From Tissierellia bacterium (lineage in GTDB: Bacteria; Bacillota; Clostridia; Tissierellales; Peptoniphilaceae), in NCBI GenBank assembly GCA_030537765.1, contig JAUNVH010000002.1:1-64000 (forward strand): a DNA stretch of 64,000 nucleotides, written 5' to 3'. The translations under genes and the position numbers were made by a program. The notes beneath the pieces are model-generated. The model was not told where the DNA came from, did no database searches, and saw only the letters and a list, made by a program, of their open reading frames with translations. Shown one piece after another: positions 101-23,089 of the stretch (positions are counted from its first letter, which is position 1; every line of letters starts with the position of its first letter).

Positions 101-283
101 ATGACAGAAATCAAAGTCGGAGACAACGAATCTCTTGATAATGCACTGAAAAGATTTAAAAGACAATGTGCTACTTCAGGTGTTCTAAAAGAAGCTAGAA
201 AAAGAGAACATTATGAAAAACCGAGTGTTCGCAGAAAGAAAAAATCTGAGGAAGCCAGGAGAAAGAAATTCTCCAGACACTAA
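101..283 (+). CDS. rpsU: 30S ribosomal protein S21
   Basis: A 60-aa, very basic protein (for example [13 protein letters not shown] near the C-terminus) with the typical S21 N-terminus, in which a short acidic start leads into [14 protein letters not shown]21 binds 16S rRNA in the small-subunit platform near the anti-Shine-Dalgarno region and helps initiation. Length is normal for Firmicutes. A strong AGGAGG at 88-93 lies 7 nt before the ATG. The gene is followed after 21 nt by a YqeY-family gene, the usual rpsU-yqeY pair, and both appear to share the promoter at 22-50. Confidence 0.97.
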
Positions 284-304
284 TTTTTTACAGAAGGTGA
301 TAAT

Positions 305-748
305 ATGTCTCTAAAAGAAAAATTAATGGTAGATTTAAAAAACGCAATGAAAGAAAAAAATACTGTGCGTAAAAACACCATAACTATGATTAGAGCTGCC
401 ATCAAACAAAAAGAAGTTGACGAGCGAAAAGAATTAAAAGATTCAGACATAATCGATATCATATCTAAGCAGTTAAAAGAACGCAAGTCTTCAATAATTG
501 AGTTTGAAAAAGGCAATCGCCAAGATTTGGTGGATTTAACAAATAAAGAAATAAAGATTCTTTTAGAGTATTTACCGCAGCAGCTTTCTGAATCAGAAAT
601 CGATGAACTAGTAAAAGAAGCCATCAACGAAACAGAAGCTACTTCGATAAAAGATATGGGGAAAATAATGAAAATCCTCATGCCCAAAGTAAAGGGTAAA
701 GCGGACGGAAATCTAGTGAATCAGTCCGTGAGAAAATTTCTAAATTGA
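305..748 (+). CDS. GatB/YqeY domain protein
   Basis: A 147-aa all-helical protein matching the YqeY family along its full length, with the internal landmarks RAAIKQKEVDERK, LEYLPQQLSE and MGKIMKILMPKVKGKADG. The family resembles the tail domain of GatB, which contacts tRNA in the Glu-tRNA(Gln) amidotransferase, but the role of free YqeY is not settled; tRNA or ribosome association is an inference. It follows rpsU as in many Firmicutes and ends in a good terminator, so rpsU-yqeY is probably a two-gene operon. Confidence 0.93.
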   Translation: MSLKEKLMVDLKNAMKEKNTVRKNTITMIRAAIKQKEVDERKELKDSDIIDIISKQLKERKSSIIEFEKGNRQDLVDLTNKEIKILLEYLPQQLSESEIDELVKEAINETEATSIKDMGKIMKILMPKVKGKADGNLVNQSVRKFLN

Positions 749-775
749 GATGTCGCAAATGCGGCATCTTTTTTT
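749..775 (+). terminator. rpsU-yqeY terminator
   Basis: An 8-bp stem (gatgtcgc at 749-756 with gcggcatc at 761-768, one G-T pair), a 4-nt AAAT loop and seven T residues at 769-775. It starts directly after the yqeY stop codon. Confidence 0.85.
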
Positions 776-870
776 AATATAAATACATATAATTTAAGTA
801 AATGGGTATATTATATATATGCATTTTGTTTAAACGACTAGTAATGTAAATCGAACAAGAGGAGGTCGTG

Positions 871-2157
871 ATGAAAAGACAAAAGTTTTTAATCTTAATT
901 ACAACATTTTTATTGCTAGTTTTTAATTTTATTCCGGCATTTTCAAAAAGTAGCAAAGATGTTTATATCATTCCCATAAAAGGTGAAATAAATTTGGCGA
1001 CATCAAATTTTGTTAAAGAATCTATTGAAAAAGCTGAATATAATGGCGCTGAAGCAATAATTTTTGAAATTGATACTTATGGCGGACTAATAGATTCGGC
1101 CGAAAAAATTAAAAACAGTATCTTTGGCACAGATATTCCTACAATATCATTTATAAATACTAAGGCAGAATCTGCCGGAGTCTTAATATCTTTGGCCTCT
1201 GAGAAAGTTGCGATGGCACCAGGCTCTACAATAGGCAGCGCAGAGCCCATACCCAATAATGAAAAGATTTTGAGTATGTGGCGAGCAATGCTTCGTGAAG
1301 TGGCAGAATATAGAGAACGAGATAAAGATATAGTCGAGGCGATGGCGGATAAAGATATTTATGTGCCAGGCCTTTCAGAAGAGGGTAAGCTACTAAATTT
1401 AACTGCCAAGGAAGCAAAGACTCATGGCATATGTGATATTATAAGCTCTAATAAACAAGATATTTTAAATGAATTTGGAATATCGGGCCAATTGGTAGAG
1501 ATTGAGGAATCTATTTCTGGAAAACTTGCCAGAATATTAGGATCGCAAGCTGTGAGCAGCTTTTTATTAGTCGTGGCATTTGTGGCAATGGCTGTAGAAA
1601 TATTTGCTCCAGGATTTGGACTTCCAGGAATTATAAGTATAATCGCATTCGTCTTATTCTTTAGTGGGAATGTGTTGGCAGGCTATTCAGGCTGGCTATC
1701 TATTTTATTATTCGTGATAGGGATTGTCTTGATGGGCATTGAGGCAATTATACCTGGATTTGGACTTCCTGGTATAGCTGGTATTATTCTATTGTTCTTA
1801 GGGCTGGCAAGTTCCATGGGCTCACTTGCAAAAGCTGCAACTGCTATAAGTCTTGCCGTTATTTCGGCAGTGATTGTAATTGTCGTATTGATAAAGTTTG
1901 GCAAGCGCTCTAAATTATTCGATAGAATAACACTTCAAAATACTTCGTCTAAAGAGAGAGGCTTTATTTCAAGTGATGAATATGATTTTCCAGTAGGGAC
2001 TGTGGCAATAGCACTTACAGATTTAAGGCCATCGGGATTTATAGAATTAGATGGCAAAAAGCTAGATGCTTTGGCAAGTTCAGACTATATTAATCGCGGT
2101 TCTACTGTAATTATAGATTCTATAGTGGGATCAAAAATAATCGTAAAGGAGAAATGA
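871..2157 (+). CDS. nfeD: NfeD-family membrane-bound ClpP-class serine protease
   Basis: A long-form NfeD protein (428 aa). Residues 1-25 form a signal peptide. A ClpP-like protease domain follows (about 30-205) with the nucleophile serine in [12 protein letters not shown] (about S101) and the downstream [10 protein letters not shown] segment. Membrane helices lie at about 229-340, and a C-terminal OB-fold at about 365-428. The phrase PGFGLPGI occurs twice in the membrane part (about 247-254 and 295-302), suggesting an internal duplication. I chose the ATG at 871 over the GTG at 868 because AGGAGG ends at 865, too close to the GTG. It overlaps the flotillin gene, the standard NfeD-flotillin membrane-quality pair. 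Confidence 0.92.
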
Positions 2158-2159
2158 TA

Positions 2160-3134
2160 ATGGACTATTTCACAATTTTTATTGCAGTACTCGTAGTTTT
2201 ATTCGTAATTTTATTTTTCACATTTATTCCCATCGGGCTTTGGATTACGGCTTCATTTTCAGGCGTAAGAATAAAGATTTCCAATTTGATAGGTATGAGA
2301 ATGAGAAGAGTAATACCTAATAGGATTGTAAATCCTATGATTAAGGCAACTAAAGCTGGGCTAGATTTAAATGTAGAAGATCTAGAAGCGCATTACTTAG
2401 CAGGCGGTAATATAGATGCCGTAGTAGATGCATTAATTGCAGCTCAAAGGGCAAATATACCATTGGAATTTGAAAGAGCGGCAGCAATTGATTTGGCTGG
2501 CAGAAATGTCTTAGAAGCTGTGCAAGTAAGCGTAAATCCAAAAGTTATAGAAACTCCAAATATTTCTGCAGTTGCAAAAGATGGTATCGAAGTAATTGTA
2601 AAAGCAAGAGTTACAGTTAGGGCAAATATCGACAGACTAGTCGGAGGTGCTGGAGAAGAAACTATAATAGCAAGAGTTGGTGAAGGAATTGTCACAACAG
2701 TAGGTAGTGCAGATTCTTATAAGAAGGTATTAGAAAATCCCGATTCAATATCGAAAGTAGTTTTAGAAAAAGGCCTAGATAGTGGAACTGCTTTTGAAAT
2801 TTTATCAATAGATATTGCAGATGTCGATGTTGCAAGAAATATTGGCGCAAAACTTCAAACAGATCAAGCTGAAGCCGATAAGAGAATCGCCGAAGCTAAA
2901 GCATCTGAAAGAAGAGCAATGGCGCTTGCTAAAGAGCAAGAGATGAAAGCCGAAGTTCAGCAGATGAGAGCAAAAGTTGTGGAAGCTGAATCTCAAGTTC
3001 CATTGGCACTTGCTGAAGCGCTTAAAGAAGGCAATTTGGGAGCTATGGATTATTACAATATGATGAATATATTAAGTGACACCGAAATGAGAAAATCTAT
3101 TGCAAAACCGGACGGTTCCAACACCACTAAGTAG
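2160..3134 (+). CDS. floA: Flotillin-like protein FloA (SPFH domain)
   Basis: About 324 aa, with one N-terminal membrane hairpin or anchor (residues about 3-30), then an SPFH/PHB domain and an alanine/glutamate-rich C-terminal coiled coil ([17 protein letters not shown] and following). This is the FloA (YqfA) architecture that scaffolds functional membrane microdomains in Bacillus. The ATG at 2160 has AAAGGAG at 2145-2151 with an 8-nt gap and is preferred to the ATG at 2154, which overlaps the nfeD stop. It is translationally coupled to nfeD. Confidence 0.94.
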
Positions 3135-3142
3135 GTGTTATT

Positions 3143-3811
3143 ATGGATCTTTTTACAATAATAATATTTTGGATTATAATTTCACTTTTTAGATCGGCTT
3201 CTAAGAATAAAAATACTAAGAATATAACGACACAAAAAGATATAAATCCAGATAATGCCAATCCATTTTGGAGCTTCGATGAGAAGATGGAAGATGGAGA
3301 TATTCCTTGGCGAGAATTCAAAATCGAGAGCAATGAATTTCAAAAAGCTATGGAAAAATCATTAAAGAGAAAACAAAAAACTAAAAAACGTGTAAAAAAA
3401 GATAAATGGCATGAGAGTTTAATTAGAAAATCTAATGAACGCTCAGCCAAAAAAGAAAGTCTTTTTAAAGAGAAAAAATTTGAACAATCTGAAGCTGAAA
3501 GAATTAAAGCTGAAAATATGGCAAAAAGACTAAAACACGTTGAAGAGGAGAGAAGAAAGGCCAGAGAAGGCTTCAATGCACACGTAGAATATAGAGGCGA
3601 AAGTCTTGCTAGAATGGAAGCCGATTATTTAGTAGATGAAGGCATTATTGACAATCTAGATGTCACTATAGAGCCTAGCGAGAATGATTTTTACAATATT
3701 GATTCAAATTTTAAATCAAATATTAAAAAATCTTCAATAAGAGATGCAATAATTGCTGCAGAAATTTTAGGCAAGCCAATCTCTAAAAGAAAAGATAAGA
3801 GAATCATATAA
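3143..3811 (+). CDS. Uncharacterised membrane-anchored charged protein
   Basis: Not recognised. The 222-aa protein starts with a single hydrophobic helix (residues 2-17). A tryptophan-containing acidic patch (NPFWSFDEKMEDGDIPW, about 41-57) follows, then a long lysine/glutamate-rich helical stretch (about 65-150), and a compact C-terminus with DAIIAAEILGKPISKR (about 201-216) that looks conserved rather than random. It lies 8 nt after floA and ends at a terminator, so it should be made with NfeD and FloA. A role in the flotillin membrane assembly is inference from position only. Confidence 0.75.
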   Translation: MDLFTIIIFWIIISLFRSASKNKNTKNITTQKDINPDNANPFWSFDEKMEDGDIPWREFKIESNEFQKAMEKSLKRKQKTKKRVKKDKWHESLIRKSNERSAKKESLFKEKKFEQSEAERIKAENMAKRLKHVEEERRKAREGFNAHVEYRGESLARMEADYLVDEGIIDNLDVTIEPSENDFYNIDSNFKSNIKKSSIRDAIIAAEILGKPISKRKDKRII

Positions 3812-3817
3812 TAAAGG

Positions 3818-3848
3818 GGAGTCATATTAAAATTATGACTCCTTTTTT
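3818..3848 (+). terminator. nfeD-floA operon terminator
   Basis: A 9-bp perfect stem GGAGTCATA (3818-3826) with TATGACTCC (3834-3842), a 7-nt loop and six T residues. It lies 7 nt after the stop codon at 3811. Confidence 0.9.
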
Positions 3849-3971
3849 AAACTAGATTTAAATATAGGATATTGTTATTTACTCTTTTTATAATCAGTTC
3901 AATTATGCTTAAATTATAGATATATAGAGCTGAATATGGTATTATAATCTAAAGGGGAGGACATATAATAA

Positions 3972-4973
3972 TTGAATATTTATAAAGAAAGAGTCGAGAT
4001 TTATGATCAGAATTTAATGATGACAATTCTTGGAAAGCTCGATGAGAATTTAAAATTTATAGAAAAATTATGTTTTGTTAAATTGTCGGTAAGTGATACG
4101 GCAATCGATATATTTTCAAAACAAGAAACAAATTCTAAACTATGCGCTGAACTTATCGAAAATTTAAAATATATTATAACTAGACAAAGAAAACTAGACA
4201 CTAAAGATATAAAACTTATATATGATCTCATAAAGACGAAACAGATTGATGAAATAAAAGATGTATTTGACGAAGTTGTGGTGAGAACGGCTAGTGGAAA
4301 ATCTATAAGACCAAAGACGATAGGGCAAATCCAATATGTAAACTCAATGAAGAAAAACGATATCGTATTTGGAGTTGGACCTGCTGGCACTGGAAAGACT
4401 TATCTTGCAATGGCAATGGCAGTAAATGCTTTTAAGAAAAAAGAAGTATCCCGCATAATTTTGACTAGACCGGCAGTCGAAGCAGGAGAGAGCTTAGGTT
4501 TTTTGCCAGGAGATTTGCAAATGAAAGTAGATCCATATTTAAGGCCGCTTTATGACGCTCTGTTTGAAATTATGGGTTTCGATAATTTTAATAAATTAGT
4601 GGAAAATAATGTAATTGAAGTTGCACCATTGGCATATATGCGTGGGAGAACTTTAGATTCATCTTATGTAATTTTAGACGAGGCGCAAAATACGACAAAT
4701 GAACAGATGAAGATGTTCTTAACTAGGCTTGGTTACGGTTCAAAGGCCATAATAACGGGAGATATTACTCAAATAGATTTGCCAGGCAATAAGCAATCTG
4801 GCTTAAAGACTGTGACTAGAATTTTAAAAGATATAAAGGGTCTAGATATAATCTATTTGACCAAAAACGATATAGTCAGACATGCTCTAGTGCAAAATAT
4901 AATTGATGCATATGAGCGTTACGAAAAGGAAAAGAATAAAAGATATGAAAACAAGTCTAAGAAAAAAACTTAA
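3972..4973 (+). CDS. phoH: PhoH family ATPase
   Basis: A 333-aa PhoH/PhoL-type P-loop protein with a KH-like N-terminal part, Walker A GPAGTGKT (136-143) and Walker B VILDEAQN (233-240). The family is linked to RNA metabolism and ribosome maturation through its constant neighbour YbeY, found here two genes downstream; its exact reaction is unsettled. The start is a TTG at 3972: an in-frame stop lies directly upstream and AAAGGGGAGG (3951-3960) is the only Shine-Dalgarno, with a somewhat long 11-nt gap. No other early in-frame start is credible. Confidence 0.93.
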   Translation: MNIYKERVEIYDQNLMMTILGKLDENLKFIEKLCFVKLSVSDTAIDIFSKQETNSKLCAELIENLKYIITRQRKLDTKDIKLIYDLIKTKQIDEIKDVFDEVVVRTASGKSIRPKTIGQIQYVNSMKKNDIVFGVGPAGTGKTYLAMAMAVNAFKKKEVSRIILTRPAVEAGESLGFLPGDLQMKVDPYLRPLYDALFEIMGFDNFNKLVENNVIEVAPLAYMRGRTLDSSYVILDEAQNTTNEQMKMFLTRLGYGSKAIITGDITQIDLPGNKQSGLKTVTRILKDIKGLDIIYLTKNDIVRHALVQNIIDAYERYEKEKNKRYENKSKKKT

Positions 4974-6957: not shown

Positions 6958-7408
6958 TATTTATTATGACGATAGACAGAGTTTTTTGAAAATCGATAAA
7001 AGCTTTACTGATAGCATAGAAAAAGCAATAAAAGCAGTTGTTGAAATGGAATTAGAAAATGATAGCGAATATGAAATTAGCGTGTCTTTTGTTGACGACA
7101 AAGAAATCAAAGAGCTAAATAGAGATTTTAGAAATAATGACAATGTCACTGATGTATTGAGCTTTCCATTAGATATGAGGATGGACGATTATATAATGCT
7201 TGGCGATATCGTTATAAATACAAAGAGAGTAACGGAGCAAGCAAAAGAATTTTCACATTCAATCGACAGAGAATTTATGTATTTGACTGTCCATAGTATG
7301 CTTCATCTTTTAGGATACGACCATGAAAGTTCTGAAGATAAAGCCTTTATGCGCAGCTTGGAAAAGAGAATTATGAACAAATTGGGTGTTTATAAAAATG
7401 AAAAATAA
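6950..7408 (+). CDS. ybeY: rRNA maturation endoribonuclease YbeY
   Basis: A 152-aa UPF0054 protein with the zinc motif H-x3-H-x5-H at H115, H119 and H125 (HSMLHLLGYDH). YbeY is a metal-dependent RNase required for 16S rRNA 3-prime-end maturation and 70S quality control. I chose the ATG at 6950 because AAAGGGAG ends 6 nt before it; a longer frame opens at 6926 but has no ribosome-binding site. It overlaps the end of the 7TM-HD gene by 8 nt. Confidence 0.95.
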   Translation: MINIYYDDRQSFLKIDKSFTDSIEKAIKAVVEMELENDSEYEISVSFVDDKEIKELNRDFRNNDNVTDVLSFPLDMRMDDYIMLGDIVINTKRVTEQAKEFSHSIDREFMYLTVHSMLHLLGYDHESSEDKAFMRSLEKRIMNKLGVYKNEK

Positions 7409-8132
7409 AAGAAGAAAATACGGCAAGAGTATAAAAATAATAGATAGCTTTAATCACGCAGTAAATGGAATAATTTCTGCCGTTGGCACAGAGAAAAATA
7501 TGAAAATTCATTATACTGTGGCGACAGTTGTATTGATTATGAGCTTGTTTTTTGATTTTACGCGCCTAGAATTTTTGACTTTGATTTTGACAATTTCATT
7601 AGTACTTGTGGCTGAACTTTTAAATACTGCCATAGAAAAGACAGTGGACTTAGTTACAATGGATTATAATCCTATTGCAAAATTGGCAAAAGACATTGCC
7701 GCAGGGGCAGTGCTGGTGGCTGCAATAAACTCTGTTATTGTAGGATATTTGCTATTTTTTGACAGACTTTCAGAAATGGGAAATATTATGATCTTTAAGA
7801 TTAGAAATTCTCCCATTCATTTGACAGTACTGGCAGTCTTATTCGTATTTATTATTACAATATTTTTGAAGCTATTGTTTGCAGATAAAGTTAGCGGCAC
7901 TCATTTTCAAGGAGGCGCAGTAAGCGGCCATTCAATGCTTGCTTTCTGTGCGGCAACTATTATATCAATTCTCGCACATAATGGCATTATAACAATGCTC
8001 AGCTTGCTTTTGGCGCTATTAGTTTTTGAAAGTAGAATTGAAGGCGGCATACACACTTTTTGGCAGGCATTATCTGGCTCAATTATAGGAATTGGGATCG
8101 GAATTTTAATTTTTCAATTGATGATAAGATAA
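7398..8132 (+). CDS. DgkA-type lipid kinase fused to PAP2 phosphatase
   Basis: Two lipid enzymes in one 244-aa chain. Residues about 1-120 are a diacylglycerol/undecaprenol kinase of the DgkA family (three helices, with ELLNTAIEKTVDL as the conserved segment). Residues about 125-244 are a PAP2 acid phosphatase domain with the SGHSM motif and SRIEGGIHTFWQ as motif 3. In Firmicutes the DgkA homologue phosphorylates undecaprenol, and PAP2 domains remove phosphates from undecaprenyl-PP, so a role in lipid-carrier recycling is inferred. The ATG at 7398 overlaps ybeY by 11 nt; a GTG at 7386 is possible. Confidence 0.9.
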   Translation: MKNKRRKYGKSIKIIDSFNHAVNGIISAVGTEKNMKIHYTVATVVLIMSLFFDFTRLEFLTLILTISLVLVAELLNTAIEKTVDLVTMDYNPIAKLAKDIAAGAVLVAAINSVIVGYLLFFDRLSEMGNIMIFKIRNSPIHLTVLAVLFVFIITIFLKLLFADKVSGTHFQGGAVSGHSMLAFCAATIISILAHNGIITMLSLLLALLVFESRIEGGIHTFWQALSGSIIGIGIGILIFQLMIR

Positions 8133-8147
8133 TTAAGGAAGGTAATT

Positions 8148-8549
8148 ATGACAATAAAAAATTTGATAAAAAAAGCTATTGAAGCAAAGGAAAATTCATA
8201 TTCGCCATATTCAAAATTTAGAGTTGGCTGTGCAGTATTGACTGATAGTGGTGAAGTATTTACAGGCTGCAATGTAGAGAATGCAGCTTTTTCGCCCTCG
8301 CTTTGCGCAGAGAGAAATGCAATTTCTACAGCCATTGCAAAAGGTTATAAAAGCTTTAAAGCCATTGCTATAACTGGCGACAGTGAATGGACATATCCAT
8401 GCGGAGTGTGCAGGCAATTTATGAAAGAATTTTTTGATAGCACCGATATCTATATTGTAAAATCTGAAACAGAATATCGAAAATACAAATTAGAAGATCT
8501 ATTGCCATGTGGATTTGGACCTGATAATTTGAATACGGAGGAAATATGA
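8148..8549 (+). CDS. cdd: Cytidine deaminase
   Basis: A 133-aa homotetrameric-type cytidine deaminase. The catalytic zinc site is complete: C53-A-E55 and P84-C85-x2-C88. It converts cytidine or deoxycytidine to uridine or deoxyuridine in pyrimidine salvage. AAGGAAGG precedes the ATG, and the gene overlaps era by ATGA. The dgkA-cdd-era order is the usual Firmicute arrangement. Confidence 0.96.
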   Translation: MTIKNLIKKAIEAKENSYSPYSKFRVGCAVLTDSGEVFTGCNVENAAFSPSLCAERNAISTAIAKGYKSFKAIAITGDSEWTYPCGVCRQFMKEFFDSTDIYIVKSETEYRKYKLEDLLPCGFGPDNLNTEEI

Positions 8550-9427
8550 AAAGCGGATATGTAACAATTCTTGGCCGACCAAATGTTGGCAAATCAACAC
8601 TTTTAAATATGATTATTGGGGAAAAGCTCTCAATTATTTCTGATAAGCCACAGACTACTAGAGAGAGAATTAATTTAATCTATAATGATGACGATATGCA
8701 AATTATATTTATAGATACTCCAGGTATGCAAAATCCAAGAAATAAGCTCGGAACATATATGCTAAACGAATCTAAGGCTTCTGCAAAAGATTCTGATGTT
8801 TTAATATATATGACAGATAATAGCGATTATATTGGCAGGCAAGATACCGAGATATTAGAATTTTTAAAAACTATGGAACAGCCTATAATTTGTGTAATAA
8901 ATAAAATTGATATTATGGACAAAAAGACATTGGCTGAAATTATGATGATGTATTCTGAATTACAGATTTTTTCAGAGATTATACCAATCTCGTCACTCAA
9001 TGCATCTGATGTGAAACTATTTATGAATGCTTTAAAAAAATATATACCAGATGGGCCAAGATACTATCCCGAAGATTATATTACTGATAAATCTGAAAAA
9101 TTTATAGTATCAGAAATCATTAGAGAAAAGACTTTGAAATATTTAAGAGATGAAATCCCGCATGGCATTGCTATCGAGATTGAACATATGAAAGAATTTG
9201 CCAATGAAAATAAATTTGAGATAAGCGCCACGATCTTTTGCGAAAGAGAATCTCATAAAGGTATGGTCATAGGTAAAGGTGGGCAGATGATTAAAAAAAT
9301 CAGACTGGCTGCCAAAAAAGATATTGAACTATTTTTAAATGCCAAAGTGTTTTTAGAACTATATGTCAAGGTTGAAAAGGACTGGCGTCAAAAAGACGGG
9401 AAAGTGAAGAGTTTTGGCTATAAATAG
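8546..9427 (+). CDS. era: GTPase Era
   Basis: A 293-aa Era GTPase with G1 GRPNVGKST (10-18), G3 DTPG and G4 NKID, followed by a C-terminal KH domain with VIGKGGQMIKKIR. Era binds the 3-prime end of 16S rRNA and promotes 30S assembly, acting in the same process as YbeY two genes upstream. The start overlaps the cdd stop (ATGA), and the end overlaps recO by 14 nt. Length and all motifs are normal. Confidence 0.97.
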   Translation: MKSGYVTILGRPNVGKSTLLNMIIGEKLSIISDKPQTTRERINLIYNDDDMQIIFIDTPGMQNPRNKLGTYMLNESKASAKDSDVLIYMTDNSDYIGRQDTEILEFLKTMEQPIICVINKIDIMDKKTLAEIMMMYSELQIFSEIIPISSLNASDVKLFMNALKKYIPDGPRYYPEDYITDKSEKFIVSEIIREKTLKYLRDEIPHGIAIEIEHMKEFANENKFEISATIFCERESHKGMVIGKGGQMIKKIRLAAKKDIELFLNAKVFLELYVKVEKDWRQKDGKVKSFGYK

Positions 9428-10178
9428 AAATTTAAAGACGGAAGGCATTGTACTGTCAGAAAATAGATATAAAGACAGCTCGAAGTTTTTAAATGTATTA
9501 ACTAAGGATTTTGGAAAGATAACTATAAATGCAAAAGGAGCAATGCGCCCTAAGAGCAAGATTTTATCAAGCTCTCAGACTTTGGCGCAATCTAAATTTG
9601 TGCTTAGTAAATATAATGATACTTTCTATATAATAGATTCCTCGTATATTAGAGGCTACAATATGTATTCAAATAATATCGAGAAACTTGTGACGGCTCT
9701 TTACTTTTCAGAATTAGTAGACAAATCTTTAATGCAAAATGAGCCAAATGAATTTATTTATACTTTTTTAGAAAGTGCAATGCTAAAACTGAAAGAAACT
9801 GATGCAAATATCAGAATTTTCAAACTGGCATTCGATTTAAAATATATTTCTTACTTGGGCTATAGACCAATACTTGAAAGATGTGTCGATTGTGGGAAAA
9901 AACCGACAGAGAATATGTTTTTTTCAGTAGAGGACGGAGGCCTGATTTGCAATAATTGTTTGATTTTTCACGATAATTATGTTAAATTATCAATTGAGAA
10001 TATAAATTTATTGAACTTGCTGCTCTATACTAAATTTTCAGATTTGAATGAGATTCCTAATACTGAAAATACTGAGTTGATTAAGCTTGATAAGATTATA
10101 AATTCATTTATTATGTATAATATTTCTGTAGATTCTTTAAATTCATACAAGAAATTGATGGAAATCTATAGCTTATAA
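9414..10178 (+). CDS. recO: DNA repair protein RecO
   Basis: A 254-aa RecO with an N-terminal OB fold ([22 protein letters not shown]) and a C-terminal zinc finger of the C-x2-C ... C-x2-C type (RCVDCGKKP and ICNNC). RecO works with RecF and RecR to load RecA on SSB-coated gaps. The start is a TTG at 9414 inside the 3-prime end of era; no ATG is available before the conserved N-terminus, and the ribosome-binding site is weak, so expression probably depends on coupling to era. Confidence 0.93.
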
Positions 10179-10191
10179 GGGAGGACTGAAG

Positions 10192-11082
10192 ATGTATTTT
10201 CAGGATTTAATGCTCAATTTATTAAAATATTGGGGCGACAAAGGTTGTATAATTTTAGAACCATATGATATGGAAAAAGGAGCGGGCACTATGAGTCCGT
10301 ATACTTTTTTGAGGACAATCGGGCCTGAACCATGGAAGACTGTTTATGTGGAGCCTTCAAGACGACCTGCCGATGCCCGTTATGGTGAAAACCCAAACAG
10401 ACTTTATCAACATCATCAGATGCAAGTTATTTTAAAACCTGCACCTGAAGACATTCAAGATCTATATTTAGAGAGCTTAAAGGTTTGTGGAATCGATCCT
10501 TTAAAACACGATATTAGATTTATCGAGGACAATTGGGAAGCACCAACCCTCGGAGCTTGGGGCTTAGGTTGGGAAGTGTGGCTCGATGGTATGGAAATTA
10601 CGCAATTCACTTATTTCCAACAAGTTGGAGGTATAAATTGTGAGCCAGAGTCGGGCGAGATAACTTATGGGCTGGAACGTATAGCCCTATATTTACAAGA
10701 TGTAAATAGCGTATACGATATTAAGTGGAATAAAGATTATAAATATGGCGATATATTTAAAACTGCTGAATATGAACATTCAGTTTATAGTTTTGAAAAT
10801 GCAGATGTAAAGATGTTAAAGGGCCTATTTGACACTTATGAAAGAGAAGCCCAAAGAATATTAGAAGAAGTAAAGGCAATTATACCGGCATATGATTATG
10901 TTTTAAAATGCTCGCATGTATTTAATGTATTAGATGCAAGAGGAGCAATTTCAGTTTCCGAACGAGCTGTATTTATTGCAAGAGTTAGAAACTTGGCTAG
11001 AACTGTGGCAAAGTATTATTATAAACAGCGCGAAGATGCAGGATTTCCGCTATTGAAAAGAGGTGTATCAAATGATGACTAA
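10192..11082 (+). CDS. glyQ: Glycyl-tRNA synthetase alpha chain
   Basis: A 296-aa class II catalytic subunit of the alpha2-beta2 glycyl-tRNA synthetase. The opening segment [19 protein letters not shown] and the motif region with [16 protein letters not shown] are diagnostic. A strong GGGAGG lies upstream. The stop region overlaps glyS by 11 nt. No riboswitch or T-box was seen upstream; recO ends only 14 nt before. Confidence 0.97.
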
Positions 11083-13138
11083 AGATTATCTTTTAGAAAT
11101 TGGTGTAGAAGAACTTCCTGCTGCATATATAAATAATGCTGAAAAGCAGTTGAAAAATCTATTTATAAAGGCGCTAGATGAAAATAAAATTAAATATAAA
11201 GATATAATCAATTATCAAAGTCCGAGAAGACTTGCAATATTAGTAAAAGATTTAGCTACTAAACAAGACGATATAACTGAGACTCAAAGAGGTCCAAAGC
11301 TAAATATAGCTTATGATGAAAATAAAAATCCCACCAAGGCATTGGAAGGATTTATGAAATCGAAAGGCGTAAGTCTAAATGATTTAGAAATAAAAGATGA
11401 TTATATCTATGCGACAATAAATAAAAAAGGGCAGGCTACTGCAGATATTTTGGCGCAAAATATTTCACAGATAATAAAGAATATTAATTTTCCAAAAAAT
11501 ATGAAATGGGGCGGCAAAGAAATAAGATTTGCAAGACCCATAAGATATATTGTATCCCTATTTGGAGATGAAGTACTAAATTTTGATTTTGAAGGAATTA
11601 AAGTTTCTAATATAACGAAGGGCCATAGATTTTTGGGTTCTTCTCATATTGAAATTAAAAATCCATTAGACTATGAAGAGCTATTGAAAGAAAATTATGT
11701 AATAGTCGATCCAAATAAGCGCAAAGAGATTATAAAATACGATTCAGAAAAATTGGCTAAAGAAGTTGGCGGAGAAATTTTGCCAGATGAAGGTCTATTG
11801 GAAGAATTAACTAATATTGTAGAATATCCAACGCCAGTTATGGGCAGAATTAAAGATGAATATCTCACATTGCCAAATGAAGTAATAACTACGCCAATGC
11901 GAGACCATTTGAGATTTATTCCCGTTTATAAATCTGAGACGACTCTCTTGCCTTATTTTATAACTATAGTGAATGGCACAGATGAATATAAAGATATAAT
12001 AATAAAAGGCAATGAAAAAGTGCTGCAAGCCAGACTTGAAGATGCTAAGTTTTTCTATCAAGAAGATTTGAAAAAGCCATTAGAAGATTATGTTAAAGAA
12101 TTAAATGGCATTGTATTTCACGATAAATTGGGCAATTTAGAAGAAAAATCTCAAAGAATTGCAAAATTGGGTGAAAAAATTGGAGAAACTCTAGAGATTG
12201 CACCTGAAGCAATAGAAAATTTGCTACGCGCAGCCAAATTATCAAAAGCAGATTTATTGACAAATATGGTAAATGAATTTACTGAACTGCAAGGCAAAAT
12301 GGGAATGATTTATGCCGAAAAATCGGGCGAAAATCAGCTTACATCTCAGGCCATATATGAGCAGTATTTGCCAGCTTTTTCAAAAGATAAATTACCCCAA
12401 TCGACTGCAGGCGCAATTTTGAGCATAGCAGACAAGGCTGATACAATATGCGGACTGTTCTCAATTGATGAAAAACCCTCAGGATCTCAAGATCCATTTG
12501 CTTTGAGAAGGGCGGCACTTGGAATTATAAGAATTCTCTTAGATAATAAATGGGATATATCAATTGAAAAACTTATAGACTATGCACTATATCTATATGT
12601 AGATGAAAATAATTTAGTATTTGACTATGACAGCACAAAAGCATCGATTATGCAATTTTTCAATTCTAGAATTAAAGTTATATTACTAGATCAAGGCATA
12701 AGATACGATATTGCTGATGCCGTTTTAGTTTCAAACAGCGATTCGCTTATAGATATATTTGCAAAGGCAGATGCATTGAATAAATTCTTCACTCAAGAAG
12801 AAGCTAAAAAAGTGGCTGAAGCCTTTACAAGACTCCACAATTTAGCTGTCAAGGCTGAGGCTAATGATTTTGTGGGTGAATTAATGGCTGAAGAAGAAAA
12901 GAATTTATTCGATAAATTCCAGATTATGAGAGAAACTGTTGAACAAAAAGTTTTAAAAAGAGATTATGAAGAGGCGTTTGAAGATATGAAATCTTTAGTT
13001 GAGCCTATAAATCATTTCTTTGATAATGTTATGATTATGGTAGAGGACGAAAAAATTAGAAATAATAGATTAGCTTTTATAAAATCTATAGATGATTTTA
13101 TAATCGATATAATCGATTTTTCAAAAATAATTAATTAG
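11072..13138 (+). CDS. glyS: Glycyl-tRNA synthetase beta chain
   Basis: A 688-aa beta subunit, which binds tRNA(Gly). It begins with [14 protein letters not shown] and contains an HD-like central domain and the C-terminal anticodon-binding DALR-like part. The start at 11072 (tandem ATG-ATG) is preferred over the GTG at 11063 because AAAGAGG ends at 11063, giving an 8-nt gap. It overlaps glyQ, consistent with 1:1 subunit synthesis. Confidence 0.96.
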
Positions 13139-20375: not shown

Positions 20376-20452
20376 CGGGGCGTGGCGCAGTTTGGTAGCG
20401 CGCATGGTTCGGGACCATGAGGTCGCAGGTTCAAATCCTGTCGCCCCGACCA
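20376..20452 (+). tRNA. tRNA-Pro (anticodon CGG)
   Basis: A full cloverleaf of 77 nt including an encoded CCA. The acceptor stem CGGGGCG pairs with CGCCCCG. The anticodon stem CATGG/CCATG encloses the loop TTCGGGA, so the anticodon is CGG (20410-20412), reading CCG. The T-arm contains GGTTCAAATCC. A terminator follows at 20460-20484. In a low-GC genome this would be the minor proline isoacceptor beside a TGG tRNA encoded elsewhere. Confidence 0.95.
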
Positions 20453-20459
20453 TCAAACT

Positions 20460-20484
20460 ATCCAAGTCTTAGACTTGGATTTTT
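20460..20484 (+). terminator. tRNA-Pro terminator
   Basis: A 9-bp perfect stem ATCCAAGTC (20460-20468) with GACTTGGAT (20472-20480), a TTA loop and a T tail. It abuts the stop codon of the convergent Crp-like gene and may also act on that transcript. Confidence 0.8.
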
Positions 20485-21121
20485 AAAATTTTAGCGTGAT
20501 TTTTCTATTATCTATCTCTATTAGATTCTCGTCTTTCATTTTTTTTAATTCTCGAAATAATGATGGTCTTTGAACGCCGAGATAGTTTGCCAAATCTTTT
20601 TTTGTAATCGGAAGTATTATAGTATCCGATTTATACTGCTCTCTAAGATTTTCTAGATACTCAATTATATTTTCTCTCAATGATTTATGTGCATAAATTT
20701 TTATCTTATGGTTCAGCCCTTGAGAATTCGCCGAAAGTGATCTTACAAATGGAATTACAAAGGTAAAATCTTTTAGTAAAACTATGACAGCAGATTTTAA
20801 AACATGAACAATCTTACAATCAGTTTTACAATTAATATCCATTGGATAATAATTCTCTTCTCCAAAAAGTAAATTTGCTCCAATGAGATTATTTGCTTTA
20901 AATTCAAATAATATATATTCGGAGCCATTGGGCAAAAGATATTGAGCAGTAAGCTCACCATCACAGACGATGTCCATCATTTCACATCTATTATCTTTAA
21001 AATGAATTGTGCTATTTTTTTTATAATCTTTTATATAGATTTTGTTCTCTGCAATAAGGCTTTTAAGCAAAGAAGAATCAACGTTTTTAAACAAATCTAA
21101 CGATTTAATTTGCTTCAACAT
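20483..21121 (-). CDS. Crp/Fnr family transcriptional regulator
   Basis: A 212-aa regulator with an N-terminal cyclic-nucleotide-binding-like beta roll (about 1-115), a dimerisation helix and a C-terminal winged helix (TKKDLANYLGVQRPSLFRELKKM, about 173-195). It has no FNR-type N-terminal cysteine cluster, but carries four cysteines at 46, 53, 98 and 102, the last two in NCKTDC, which could sense redox state or metal (inference). The ATG at 21121 is preceded by AAGGGGTGAT. It is divergent from the cupin-permease genes across 92 nt, so it most likely controls them and itself. Confidence 0.9.
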   Translation of the reverse strand: MLKQIKSLDLFKNVDSSLLKSLIAENKIYIKDYKKNSTIHFKDNRCEMMDIVCDGELTAQYLLPNGSEYILFEFKANNLIGANLLFGEENYYPMDINCKTDCKIVHVLKSAVIVLLKDFTFVIPFVRSLSANSQGLNHKIKIYAHKSLRENIIEYLENLREQYKSDTIILPITKKDLANYLGVQRPSLFRELKKMKDENLIEIDNRKITLKF

Positions 21122-21137
21122 AATATCACCCCTTATT

Positions 21138-21166
21138 ATTATAATAAAAAGAAACATAGGTGTCTA
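21138..21166 (-). promoter_or_regulatory. Crp-like regulator gene promoter
   Basis: Read on the minus strand, TAGACA (21166-21161) and TATAAT (21143-21138) are separated by exactly 17 nt. The -10 lies inside a 12-bp palindrome TTATTATAATAA (21136-21147), a possible autoregulatory site. The implied leader is only about 10 nt. Confidence 0.55.
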
Positions 21167-21193
21167 TATTATATAATATTCCTCTAATATAAT
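21166..21193 (+). promoter_or_regulatory. Candidate control region of the cupin-permease genes
   Basis: Two TATAAT hexamers on the + strand (21172-21177 and 21188-21193) precede the cupin gene. A perfect 14-bp palindrome ATATTATATAATAT spans 21166-21179. Neither -10 has a good -35, which would fit an activator-dependent promoter. From the 21172 hexamer, the other palindrome (centre 21141.5) falls near -42, the class II activator position. In such AT-rich DNA short palindromes arise easily, so this is tentative. Confidence 0.35.
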
Positions 21194-21213
21194 CTTAAAT
21201 AGGAGGGGATAAA

Positions 21214-21531
21214 ATGATTGAAAAAATCTATAATTTGAAAATGACAGACGAAGATATCGTTGAAAAAGTAATTGCTGATGATTATATTCATTATAATCAT
21301 ATGGTATTGACTAAAGGGAATAGTTTACCTGTTCACAATGCCAATTCCAATGTATATATGACAGTTTTACGTGGAACTTTGTCGCTCGATTTAGAAGATC
21401 AAAAAACACATGCTTACACTGCTGGAACGATAATAAATATTCCTAAGGGAACTAAAATGCATCCTCAAAATTTAAACGATGAGATTTTAGAATTTATCGT
21501 AATTAAAGCTCCTGCGCCAAAACATAAATAG
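21214..21531 (+). CDS. Small cupin-domain protein
   Basis: A 105-aa single-domain cupin. Motif 2 is clear (GTIINIPKGTKMHPQN), while motif 1 (KGNSLPVHNANSNVYMTVLRG) keeps one His but lacks the second His and the Glu of the usual metal site, so metal binding may be altered. AGGAGGGG precedes the ATG. It starts a three-gene run with the two permease halves 8 nt downstream and faces the Crp-like regulator. It may be a small-molecule sensor or a metal-handling partner; the substrate is unknown. Confidence 0.85.
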   Translation: MIEKIYNLKMTDEDIVEKVIADDYIHYNHMVLTKGNSLPVHNANSNVYMTVLRGTLSLDLEDQKTHAYTAGTIINIPKGTKMHPQNLNDEILEFIVIKAPAPKHK

Positions 21532-21539
21532 TAGATAAT

Positions 21540-22022
21540 ATGGATATTTTTACTTTAATCGTATGGATTATGACTCTGAGTTTTTTGCTTATCTCTTTTT
21601 TAAAAGACAAAGCTAAGACGAAAGATGCTTTAAAAATGGCATTTGGCTTGGGAAAAGGGATGGTGCTTAATATTCTAGTTATAATTTTTATTATAGGAAT
21701 AATTTTGACTGTTTTACCACCTGAAAGTATAGCACAAACAGTGAGCCAACATTCAGTCTTTATTTCAACTATTGGGGCGGCATTATTCGGGACAATAACA
21801 TTAGTGCCTGCCTTTATTGCATTTCCACTAGCTGGCAAATTAATGCTTGGAGGCGTCAATATTATGCCCATAGTATCATTCTTAACAACTTTAACTATGG
21901 TTGGAGTAGTAACAATGCCTTTAGAAAGAGAAGAATTTGGCAATAAATTTACAATTGTGAGAAACGGATTGAGCTTTTTATTTGCGATTATAATTGCTTT
22001 ACTGATGGGGTTATTGATATGA
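21540..22022 (+). CDS. Permease half A (DUF318/ArsP-like)
   Basis: A 160-aa integral membrane protein with about four helices. Its core FGTITLVPAFIAFPLAGK (83-100) and VTMPLEREEF resemble half of a DUF318/ArsP-type permease, a family that exports metalloids or metals and normally has both halves in one chain of about 300 aa. It overlaps half B by ATGA, so the two are probably co-translated and form a heterodimer. The substrate cannot be read from sequence. It lacks the Cys of the matching segment in half B. Confidence 0.8.
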   Translation: MDIFTLIVWIMTLSFLLISFLKDKAKTKDALKMAFGLGKGMVLNILVIIFIIGIILTVLPPESIAQTVSQHSVFISTIGAALFGTITLVPAFIAFPLAGKLMLGGVNIMPIVSFLTTLTMVGVVTMPLEREEFGNKFTIVRNGLSFLFAIIIALLMGLLI

Positions 22023-22732
22023 GAGTAAAAAAATGGATTTTAGAAAATAGATTAACATCTATTTTAGTAATTGTATATTTTGGACTATTTATATTTGCGC
22101 GTCAATTGGCTATGAAATCTATCCATAATAGTATGTACTTTATAAAAGAGATGATATTGATTATGCCAGTTATATTTATTCTGACAGCTCTTTTAGATTT
22201 ATGGGTTCCTAAAAACCGAATTGTCGAAGTTTTAGGTAAAGATTCTAAAATGAAGGGAGTTTTTCTGTCTTTTGTTATTGGAAGTATGTCTTGTGGGCCA
22301 ATTTATGCAGCATTTCCAATGTGTAAAATGCTACATAAAAAGGGTGCTTCTATCAGAAATATAATTATAATTTTGAGTTCATGGGCAGTTATAAAAGTGC
22401 CAATGTTGATCAATGAATTAAAATTTTTGGGAATGAAATTCATGATTACTCGTTGGATTTTGACTGTTATATCTATTATATTGTTTTCTTACATTGCGAG
22501 TCGCGTAATATCAGAAGAAGATTTACCGATTGAAGATGAAATAAAAAAAGAGGGTTTGTTTGTGAAGCAAAGTCAATGTATTGGTTGTAAGATTTGTTTC
22601 AATAATCATCAAGATATATTTGATTTTGAAAATAAAAAGGCAAGAGTAAAATTAGATTCAAAGACATTAAAGCCACAAACAGCAATTACTATTTCAAAAA
22701 TATGTCCGGTAGATGCAATAAAATATGAATAA
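22019..22732 (+). CDS. Permease half B fused to a 4Fe-4S ferredoxin domain
   Basis: A 237-aa protein. Residues about 1-165 are the second permease half with IGSMSCGPIYAAFP (87-100; C92, and C102 just after) and a KVPMLINELK segment matching half A. Residues about 180-237 are a single-cluster ferredoxin domain: C187-x2-C190-x2-C193 and a distal C229-P, giving four ligands for one 4Fe-4S cluster. A permease carrying its own electron-transfer domain suggests redox-coupled transport or substrate reduction; this is inference. A bidirectional terminator follows. Confidence 0.82.
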   Translation: MRVKKWILENRLTSILVIVYFGLFIFARQLAMKSIHNSMYFIKEMILIMPVIFILTALLDLWVPKNRIVEVLGKDSKMKGVFLSFVIGSMSCGPIYAAFPMCKMLHKKGASIRNIIIILSSWAVIKVPMLINELKFLGMKFMITRWILTVISIILFSYIASRVISEEDLPIEDEIKKEGLFVKQSQCIGCKICFNNHQDIFDFENKKARVKLDSKTLKPQTAITISKICPVDAIKYE

Positions 22733-22748
22733 TATGGATTTAGCATAA

Positions 22749-22774
22749 TAAAAGCACCTCAAAAGGGTGCTTTT
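22749..22774. terminator. Bidirectional terminator, permease operon / rnpB
   Basis: A 9-bp stem AAAAGCACC (22750-22758) with GGTGCTTTT (22766-22774). The A/T flanks give a T run on both strands. It ends the + strand permease genes and the minus-strand RNase P RNA. Confidence 0.85.
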
Positions 22775-22775
22775 A

Positions 22776-23084
22776 TAGTATATCTATAAGCCGTGTTCTG
22801 TATTATTCGATCATCAATCTAATCTCATAGTTGCCTATGAGCTCTAGCGATCTACCATTTGACTTTCGTCCCATTTGATCTTGCTCCGGATGGGGTTTAC
22901 ATGGCCAATATATCGCTATATCGCCGGTGGTCTCTTACACCACCTTTCCACCCTTACCGACTAATGTCGGCGGTATCTCTCTGTTGCACTTGCCTTAAGG
23001 TCGCCCTCACCGGATGTTATCCGGCATCCTTGTTTTGGAGCACGGACTTTCCTCATGAATATCATGCGATCGATCGATATACTA
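22776..23084 (-). ncRNA. rnpB: RNase P RNA (class A)
   Basis: Read on the minus strand, the universal landmarks appear in order: GAGGAAAGTCCGTGCTCC near the 5-prime end, GGTAAGGGTGGAAAGG, GTAAGAGACCACCGG, GTAAACCCC and finally ACAGAACACGGCTTATAGA. The ends are set by the P1 helix, TAGTATAT at the 5-prime end (23084-23077) pairing with ATATACTA at the 3-prime end (22783-22776). This is the catalytic RNA that removes tRNA 5-prime leaders. At about 309 nt it is short compared with the roughly 350-400 nt usual for bacteria. The + strand open frame at 22859-23101 is a by-product of this RNA. Confidence 0.96.
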
Positions 23085-23089
23085 AATTT

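Follow-up and report, generated by a model that had tools for sequence, protein, structure and literature searches.

A four-gene module in the window (the whole 64,000-nucleotide stretch of DNA analysed) is, at roughly even odds (about 0.5), a stress cassette in which a dedicated Crp-family switch governs an antiparallel transporter of two half-permeases, A and B, serving defence against reactive nitrogen species. Its anatomy and regulation are well supported by sequence evidence, and a role in nitrosative stress moderately so. The module is a new variant of the ArsP transporter family and is essentially unstudied, one prior passing mention having been found.

Gene layout and control region

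An earlier note, made from the letters alone, had described a four-gene module at 20483-22732 with an ATGA overlap, and both were recovered: all four ORFs were present, and the stop of A and the start of B shared ATGA at 22019-22022. The regulator gene lies on the minus strand, divergent from the genes for the cupin, half-permease A and half-permease B on the plus strand (Table 1).

Table 1. Positions of genes, RNA genes and control elements of the module and its borders in the window.
Feature	Position	Strand	Remarks
tRNA-Pro(cgg)	20376..20452	+	shares nif3-rnpB gap with the module
Crp/Fnr-family regulator	20483..21121	-	212 aa likely, ATG 21121; ORF extensible to 21157; Pfam cNMP_binding and HTH_Crp_2
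predicted -10 box TATAAT, regulator gene	21138..21143	-	identical geometry in 43 loci
operator AGAAACATAGGTGTCT	21150..21165	.	12/12 match; sole exact copy in genome
predicted -35 box TAGACA, regulator gene	at operator, plus strand 21161-21166	-	
predicted -10 box TATAAT, cupin-A-B operon	21188..21193	+	30 nt from operator centre; equal spacing in 37 loci
small cupin, 105 aa	21214..21531	+	Pfam Cupin_2
half-permease A, 160 aa	21540..22022	+	Pfam ArsP_1; aligns with N-half of full-length ArsP; AlphaFold pLDDT 79.7
half-permease B with C-terminal 4Fe-4S domain, 237 aa	22019..22732	+	Pfam ArsP_1 and Fer4_13; AlphaFold pLDDT 87.1
4Fe-4S ligands C187, C190, C193, C229-Pro of B	22577..22708	+	invariant in 77/77 sequences
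RNase P RNA class A (Rfam RF00010)	22771-23085	-	directly downstream of B

The regulator probably starts at ATG 21121 and not at 21157, because the longer ORF would cross the operator (21150-21165); the shorter one has the same length as its relatives (212 aa), and its ATG is preceded by an RBS-like GGGGTGAT.

A scan of 84,980 species' genomes yielded 276 confirmed relatives, of which the best 80 were kept. The arrangement of regulator (-) and A(+)B(+) was found in nearly all of these best 80 loci of 276 that reached far enough, with regulator orthologues divergent from A-B in 67 kept loci. Since the arrangement recurs in 80 loci (the best of 276) and all 77 B proteins compared keep the four cluster cysteines, it is more than a chance association.

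In almost every locus the gap between regulator and operon carries a 16-bp palindrome, which reads AGAAACN4GTGTCT in most loci and AGTTACN4GTAACT in a second group. A perfect operator was present in 51 of 70 gaps (44 of the window type, 7 of the second type); in shuffled gaps a 12/12 match was never obtained and an 11/12 match occurred in about 0.1%. The recognition helix of the regulator also differs between the two operator groups, mainly by F201 to S and P198 to T. Relative to the predicted start of cupin-A-B transcription the operator is centred at about -42, as the TATAAT-like box begins 30 nt past the centre in 37 loci. Crp-type activators of class II act from about this position, and class II activation of cupin-A-B is therefore predicted. 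In the other direction, the -10 box of the regulator gene lies 14 nt from the operator in 43 loci and its -35 box (TAGACA in nearly all) lies at the operator itself, which matches the expectation for autorepression. The switching by the Crp-like protein that the earlier note had proposed is thus backed, at the level of prediction, by a conserved operator at the class II position.

Because the exact operator occurs once in the window's genome, at the module, the regulator looks dedicated to it. A genome-wide search for a wider regulon gave no exact site beyond the module, the sole site with one mismatch being inside an SDR-like gene, and the exact operator was almost absent elsewhere within the loci examined. 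The module-specific regulators form one clade (99/100 support), separate from the hcpR genes that adjoin frdX.

The cupin matched Cupin_2 with 28.7 bits (cut-off 27.2). In 35 of 77 loci a matching cupin gene is no more than 3.5 kb away from B, and some of these loci have it between A-B and hcp. The metal-cupin motifs HxH(x)3-4E(x)6G and P-x-G-x2-H are degenerate in it, the first keeping just one of its histidines (H41) and the second having M for His. The suggestion of a substrate-sensing cupin loses ground here, as the cupin is often missing or part of an hcp operon and the canonical metal ligands are absent.

A split permease with an iron-sulfur tail

Both halves matched the Pfam family ArsP_1 (PF03773; cut-off 32.3), A with 38.0 bits and B with 50.9 bits. 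Profile comparison gave E 6e-14 for A with the N-half of full-length ArsP and 1e-6 with the C-half, E 1.8e-9 for A with B, and E 5e-12 for the internal repeat, i.e., the N-half against the C-half of full-length ArsP. A and B were separate genes in all related loci examined, and A adjoined B in 24 of 24 further loci with tailed and tail-less B. The idea that the two short membrane genes make up one permease-like unit is borne out, in that A and B were always adjacent in the loci examined, are homologous, and A aligns to the ArsP N-half; unlinked halves, each complete alone, which had been named as the finding that would speak against it, occurred in no locus examined. B is not assigned to either half of ArsP, since it scored best with the C-half against close full-length ArsP yet tied between the two halves against a diverse set. 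PDB structural comparison of A with VIA-align gave a best Z of 5.5 (Gut transporter, 96 residues), too weak to use.

Helix order is equal in the AlphaFold models of A and B, each having two broken helices. Mean K+R counts for the segments N, L12, L23, L34 and L45 were 0.1/5.0/0.8/0.0/3.9 in A and 3.0/2.3/3.8/2.7/2.8 in B; the bias is thus opposite, K+R being concentrated in loops 1-2 and 4-5 of A, and in the N-terminus and loops 2-3 and 3-4 of B. Under the positive-inside rule, and if the third, broken helix is a re-entrant hairpin, this opposite bias of equivalent segments suggests that A and B pair antiparallel and that the ferredoxin tail of B is cytosolic. The same opposite bias, together with the matching folds predicted for A and B modelled separately, may reflect homologous halves of opposite topology, as in antiparallel two-subunit transporters. 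It was also noticed that A (window 21540-22022), compared with full-length ArsP, is N-half-like in sequence yet C-half-like in its loop charges. The split pair may be upside down relative to ArsP, and this could bear on the direction of transport.

The C-terminus of B is a complete 4Fe-4S domain (Fer4_13, 27.1 bits; cut-off 24.5) with the single-cluster ligand set CxxCxxC...CP. Foldseek with B matched ferredoxins alone (top E 5e-3), and a PDB sequence search gave weak ferredoxin matches only. Elsewhere, B homologues in three loci (L235, L236 and L221) carry another Fe-S tail, PF04060 (CGGCGY...C), and the two unrelated tails appear to have been joined to the same half independently. The redox link drawn in the earlier note therefore finds support, the 4Fe-4S domain being intact and a tail of independent kind being present on other B proteins. 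Several A-B pairs have no Fe-S tail, so the tail is optional for the fold.

Compared with ArsP/DUF318 proteins (PF03773, COG0701), the module shares the Pfam match of both halves, the alignment of A along the N-half and the internal-repeat design. In contrast, the ArsP organoarsenical exporters are single polypeptides of about 300-400 aa with two repeats, whereas the module has two genes (160 and 237 aa), a fused Fe-S domain, Crp-type and not ArsR-type regulation, and no C(S/T)C motif. According to PMC4435449, every ArsP protein encoded in an ars operon has this motif. A has no cysteine at all, and within the stretch GSMSCGPIYAAFPMC of B the intramembrane C102 alone is conserved (92%).

These differences bear on a possible, though unlikely, alternative, namely that A-B is an efflux pump for trivalent (organo)arsenicals or for a soft metal, the ferredoxin tail reducing the pentavalent to the exported trivalent form. 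Besides the family membership of both halves, it is favoured by the export of organoarsenicals by characterised ArsP (PMC4435449) and by several neighbourhoods: full-length ArsP is near 4, ArsR near 4 and a P-type ATPase near 8 of 81 loci; on a Thermococcus peptonophilus plasmid (L142) the split pair follows genes for an ArsR-type regulator and for a heavy-metal P-type ATPase; and in L015 and L237 a tail-less A-B is followed by an HlyD/CusB-like protein and the start of an RND-like ORF. Such neighbours would fit metal stress and weigh against a nitrosative role. However, most neighbourhoods were without ars genes, Acr3 was not found in the window's own genome, and the model of SO_0444-family Cu/Zn efflux (NF033936), to which both halves are distantly homologous, gave 13.1 and 20.8 bits against a cut-off of 300. 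The metal or metalloid substrate suggested in the earlier note is not supported, because the C(S/T)C motif is absent and the best-linked enzyme is Hcp.

Link to hcp and proposed mechanism

Hcp, the hybrid cluster protein, is a nitrosative-stress enzyme. Of 81 loci, 12 have its gene in their flanks, against a rough chance expectation of 0.4 loci, estimated from a density of about 1.3 prismane genes per 2.4 Mb and some 9.4 kb of flanking sequence at each locus. Some of the 12 belong to related lineages, yet about five arrangements are represented. Among these, 1) the genes run A-B-cupin-hcp in L060, L067 and L077, 2) hcp-cupin-frdX faces hcpR beside the module in L063 and L085, and 3) in two genomes of another family (L235 and L236) the order is regulator/hcp-A-B, B having the PF04060 tail, and the operator, GTAACATATGTTAC, fits the HcpR2 consensus GTAACnnnnGTTAC, the box of hcp derived by Rodionov et al. 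2005 (PMC1274295). The same study assigned CTC0897-0898 of C. tetani (permease and ferredoxin-like) to a divergent HcpR2 paralogue and, in one sentence, predicted CTC0896-CTC0898 to be part of the nitrogen-oxide response (PMC1274295). Compared by description, these genes share with the module the divergent HcpR2-paralogue regulator and the permease gene followed by a ferredoxin-like gene, and they probably represent the same module; the split permease, fused ferredoxin, operator, spread and mobility were not described there. Beyond this passing mention, the module was not found in the open-access full texts searched. In a 2026 C. difficile study, HcpR is shown to control frdX-hcp under NO stress (PMC12915319), and term searches of that text returned no mention of the module.

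With the HcpR/HcpR2 regulon (hcp, frdX) the module shares Crp/Fnr-family control, palindrome architecture and physical linkage in several lineages. The window regulator, however, represents a distinct variant together with its operator. It has the Crp/Fnr-family domains of HcpR/HcpR2 regulators (cNMP_binding and HTH_Crp in Pfam), yet the operator, GAAACnnnnGTGTC / GAAACATAGGTGTC, is not the HcpR2 consensus. The exact operator was found once, at the module, in a genome that may be incomplete and whose hcp is cut by a contig end. Because the regulator belongs to a separate, well-supported clade and has its own operator, we leave it outside HcpR; it may also respond to another signal. A nitrosative role is further weakened by the 69 of 81 loci with no hcp in the examined flanks, by the location of the window genome's hcp on another contig, and by the existence of tail-less A-B pairs. 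Co-occurrence with Hcp at the genome level was uninformative, as a prismane-family protein was present in 212 of 249 genomes.

We propose that the dedicated Crp-family regulator occupies the single operator between the two transcription units; on a signal, possibly nitrosative, it would recruit RNA polymerase from about -42 and turn on cupin-A-B, and, since it would then mask the -35 box of the regulator gene, it would act as an autorepressor. The homologous half-permeases would insert in opposite orientations and jointly form one ArsP-superfamily transporter, with the ferredoxin domain of B facing the cytosol. The cassette would most likely serve the reactive-nitrogen defence of an anaerobe, within the Hcp/HcpR circle, with the transporter carrying a small toxic product out of the cell and the Fe-S tail either handing electrons to the cargo or letting redox state gate transport.

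A bolder version, which we regard as distinctly unlikely, has the antiparallel halves form an electron-worked or electron-gated nitrosative-stress transporter, spread by prophages and conjugative elements, whose cytosolic tail draws electrons from the ferredoxin pool and hands them to the cargo during export, two unrelated Fe-S tails having been joined separately to the same half. Quite improbable is an ordinary ArsP-superfamily transporter gated by a tail that senses redox or iron and passes no electrons to the cargo; the single cluster on a tail with a low-confidence linker (pLDDT about 61, residues 171-180) and the optional presence of the tail across relatives are consistent with it, and nothing specific speaks against it, as sequence does not separate it from electron delivery. 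About as improbable is a tail acting as membrane-anchored electron donor for Hcp in place of FrdX, the permease being chiefly an anchor or product remover: the gene runs with hcp, the two unrelated tails on the same half and the coupling of hcp with ferredoxin-like FrdX in HcpR regulons (PMC1274295) suit it, but FrdX is still beside some modules (L063, L085 and L057), many modules are distant from hcp, and tail-less versions exist.

Apart from Hcp, little is known of the means by which strict anaerobes withstand nitric oxide and related radicals. If the proposed defence cassette is real, it would represent a new type of redox-linked transport, widespread and mobile, in which one half of a transporter has its own electron-transfer domain. 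Thanks to the dedicated operator, a reporter should readily reveal the inducing signal, and inverted-repeat transporters could be studied in the naturally split halves.

Distribution and mobility

A relative of B at E 1e-15 or better was present in 70 of 249 genomes of the window's order. rnpB comes directly after the nif3-like gene in 21 of 29 relatives, and only in the window did tRNA-Pro and the module lie between them, in agreement with the earlier description of the block as accessory. It was noticed that tRNA-Pro(cgg) and the module jointly fill window positions 20376-22732, the gap being empty in those 21 of 29 relatives. Copies 97-99% identical were found in Peptoniphilus stercorisuis, Clostridium algidicarnis, Peptostreptococcus russellii and an Erysipelotrichaceae strain. 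The cassette is widespread and mobile among gut and sludge anaerobes, and in the window it appears to be horizontally acquired.

Prophage-like flanks were seen in L050, L071 and L074, with endolysin, holin, tail and integrase genes between them, and TrbL conjugation genes in L043 and L060 (Pfam), with TrbL homologues in L058 and L067. Two scans of IMG/VR and one of INPHARED gave no relative. The evidence for phage carriage is therefore confined to three bacterial contigs that have lysis and tail genes, and the module is no general trait of phages. A search for flanking direct repeats as marks of insertion gave none that was convincing.

In Clostridium algidicarnis (L074, 2637-10390) a prophage-like region has two holin/endolysin sets, with the module placed between them. 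In Clostridium luticellarii (L050) two hcp genes and the cupin gene are on one side of the module (212-4580), and the opposite side (6969-12584) has serine integrases, endolysin and holin, as if hcp and the module travelled together on a phage. A Desulfobulbaceae MAG contig (L081) carries a module about 87% identical to the clostridial copies, which reflects either transfer across phyla or mis-binning.
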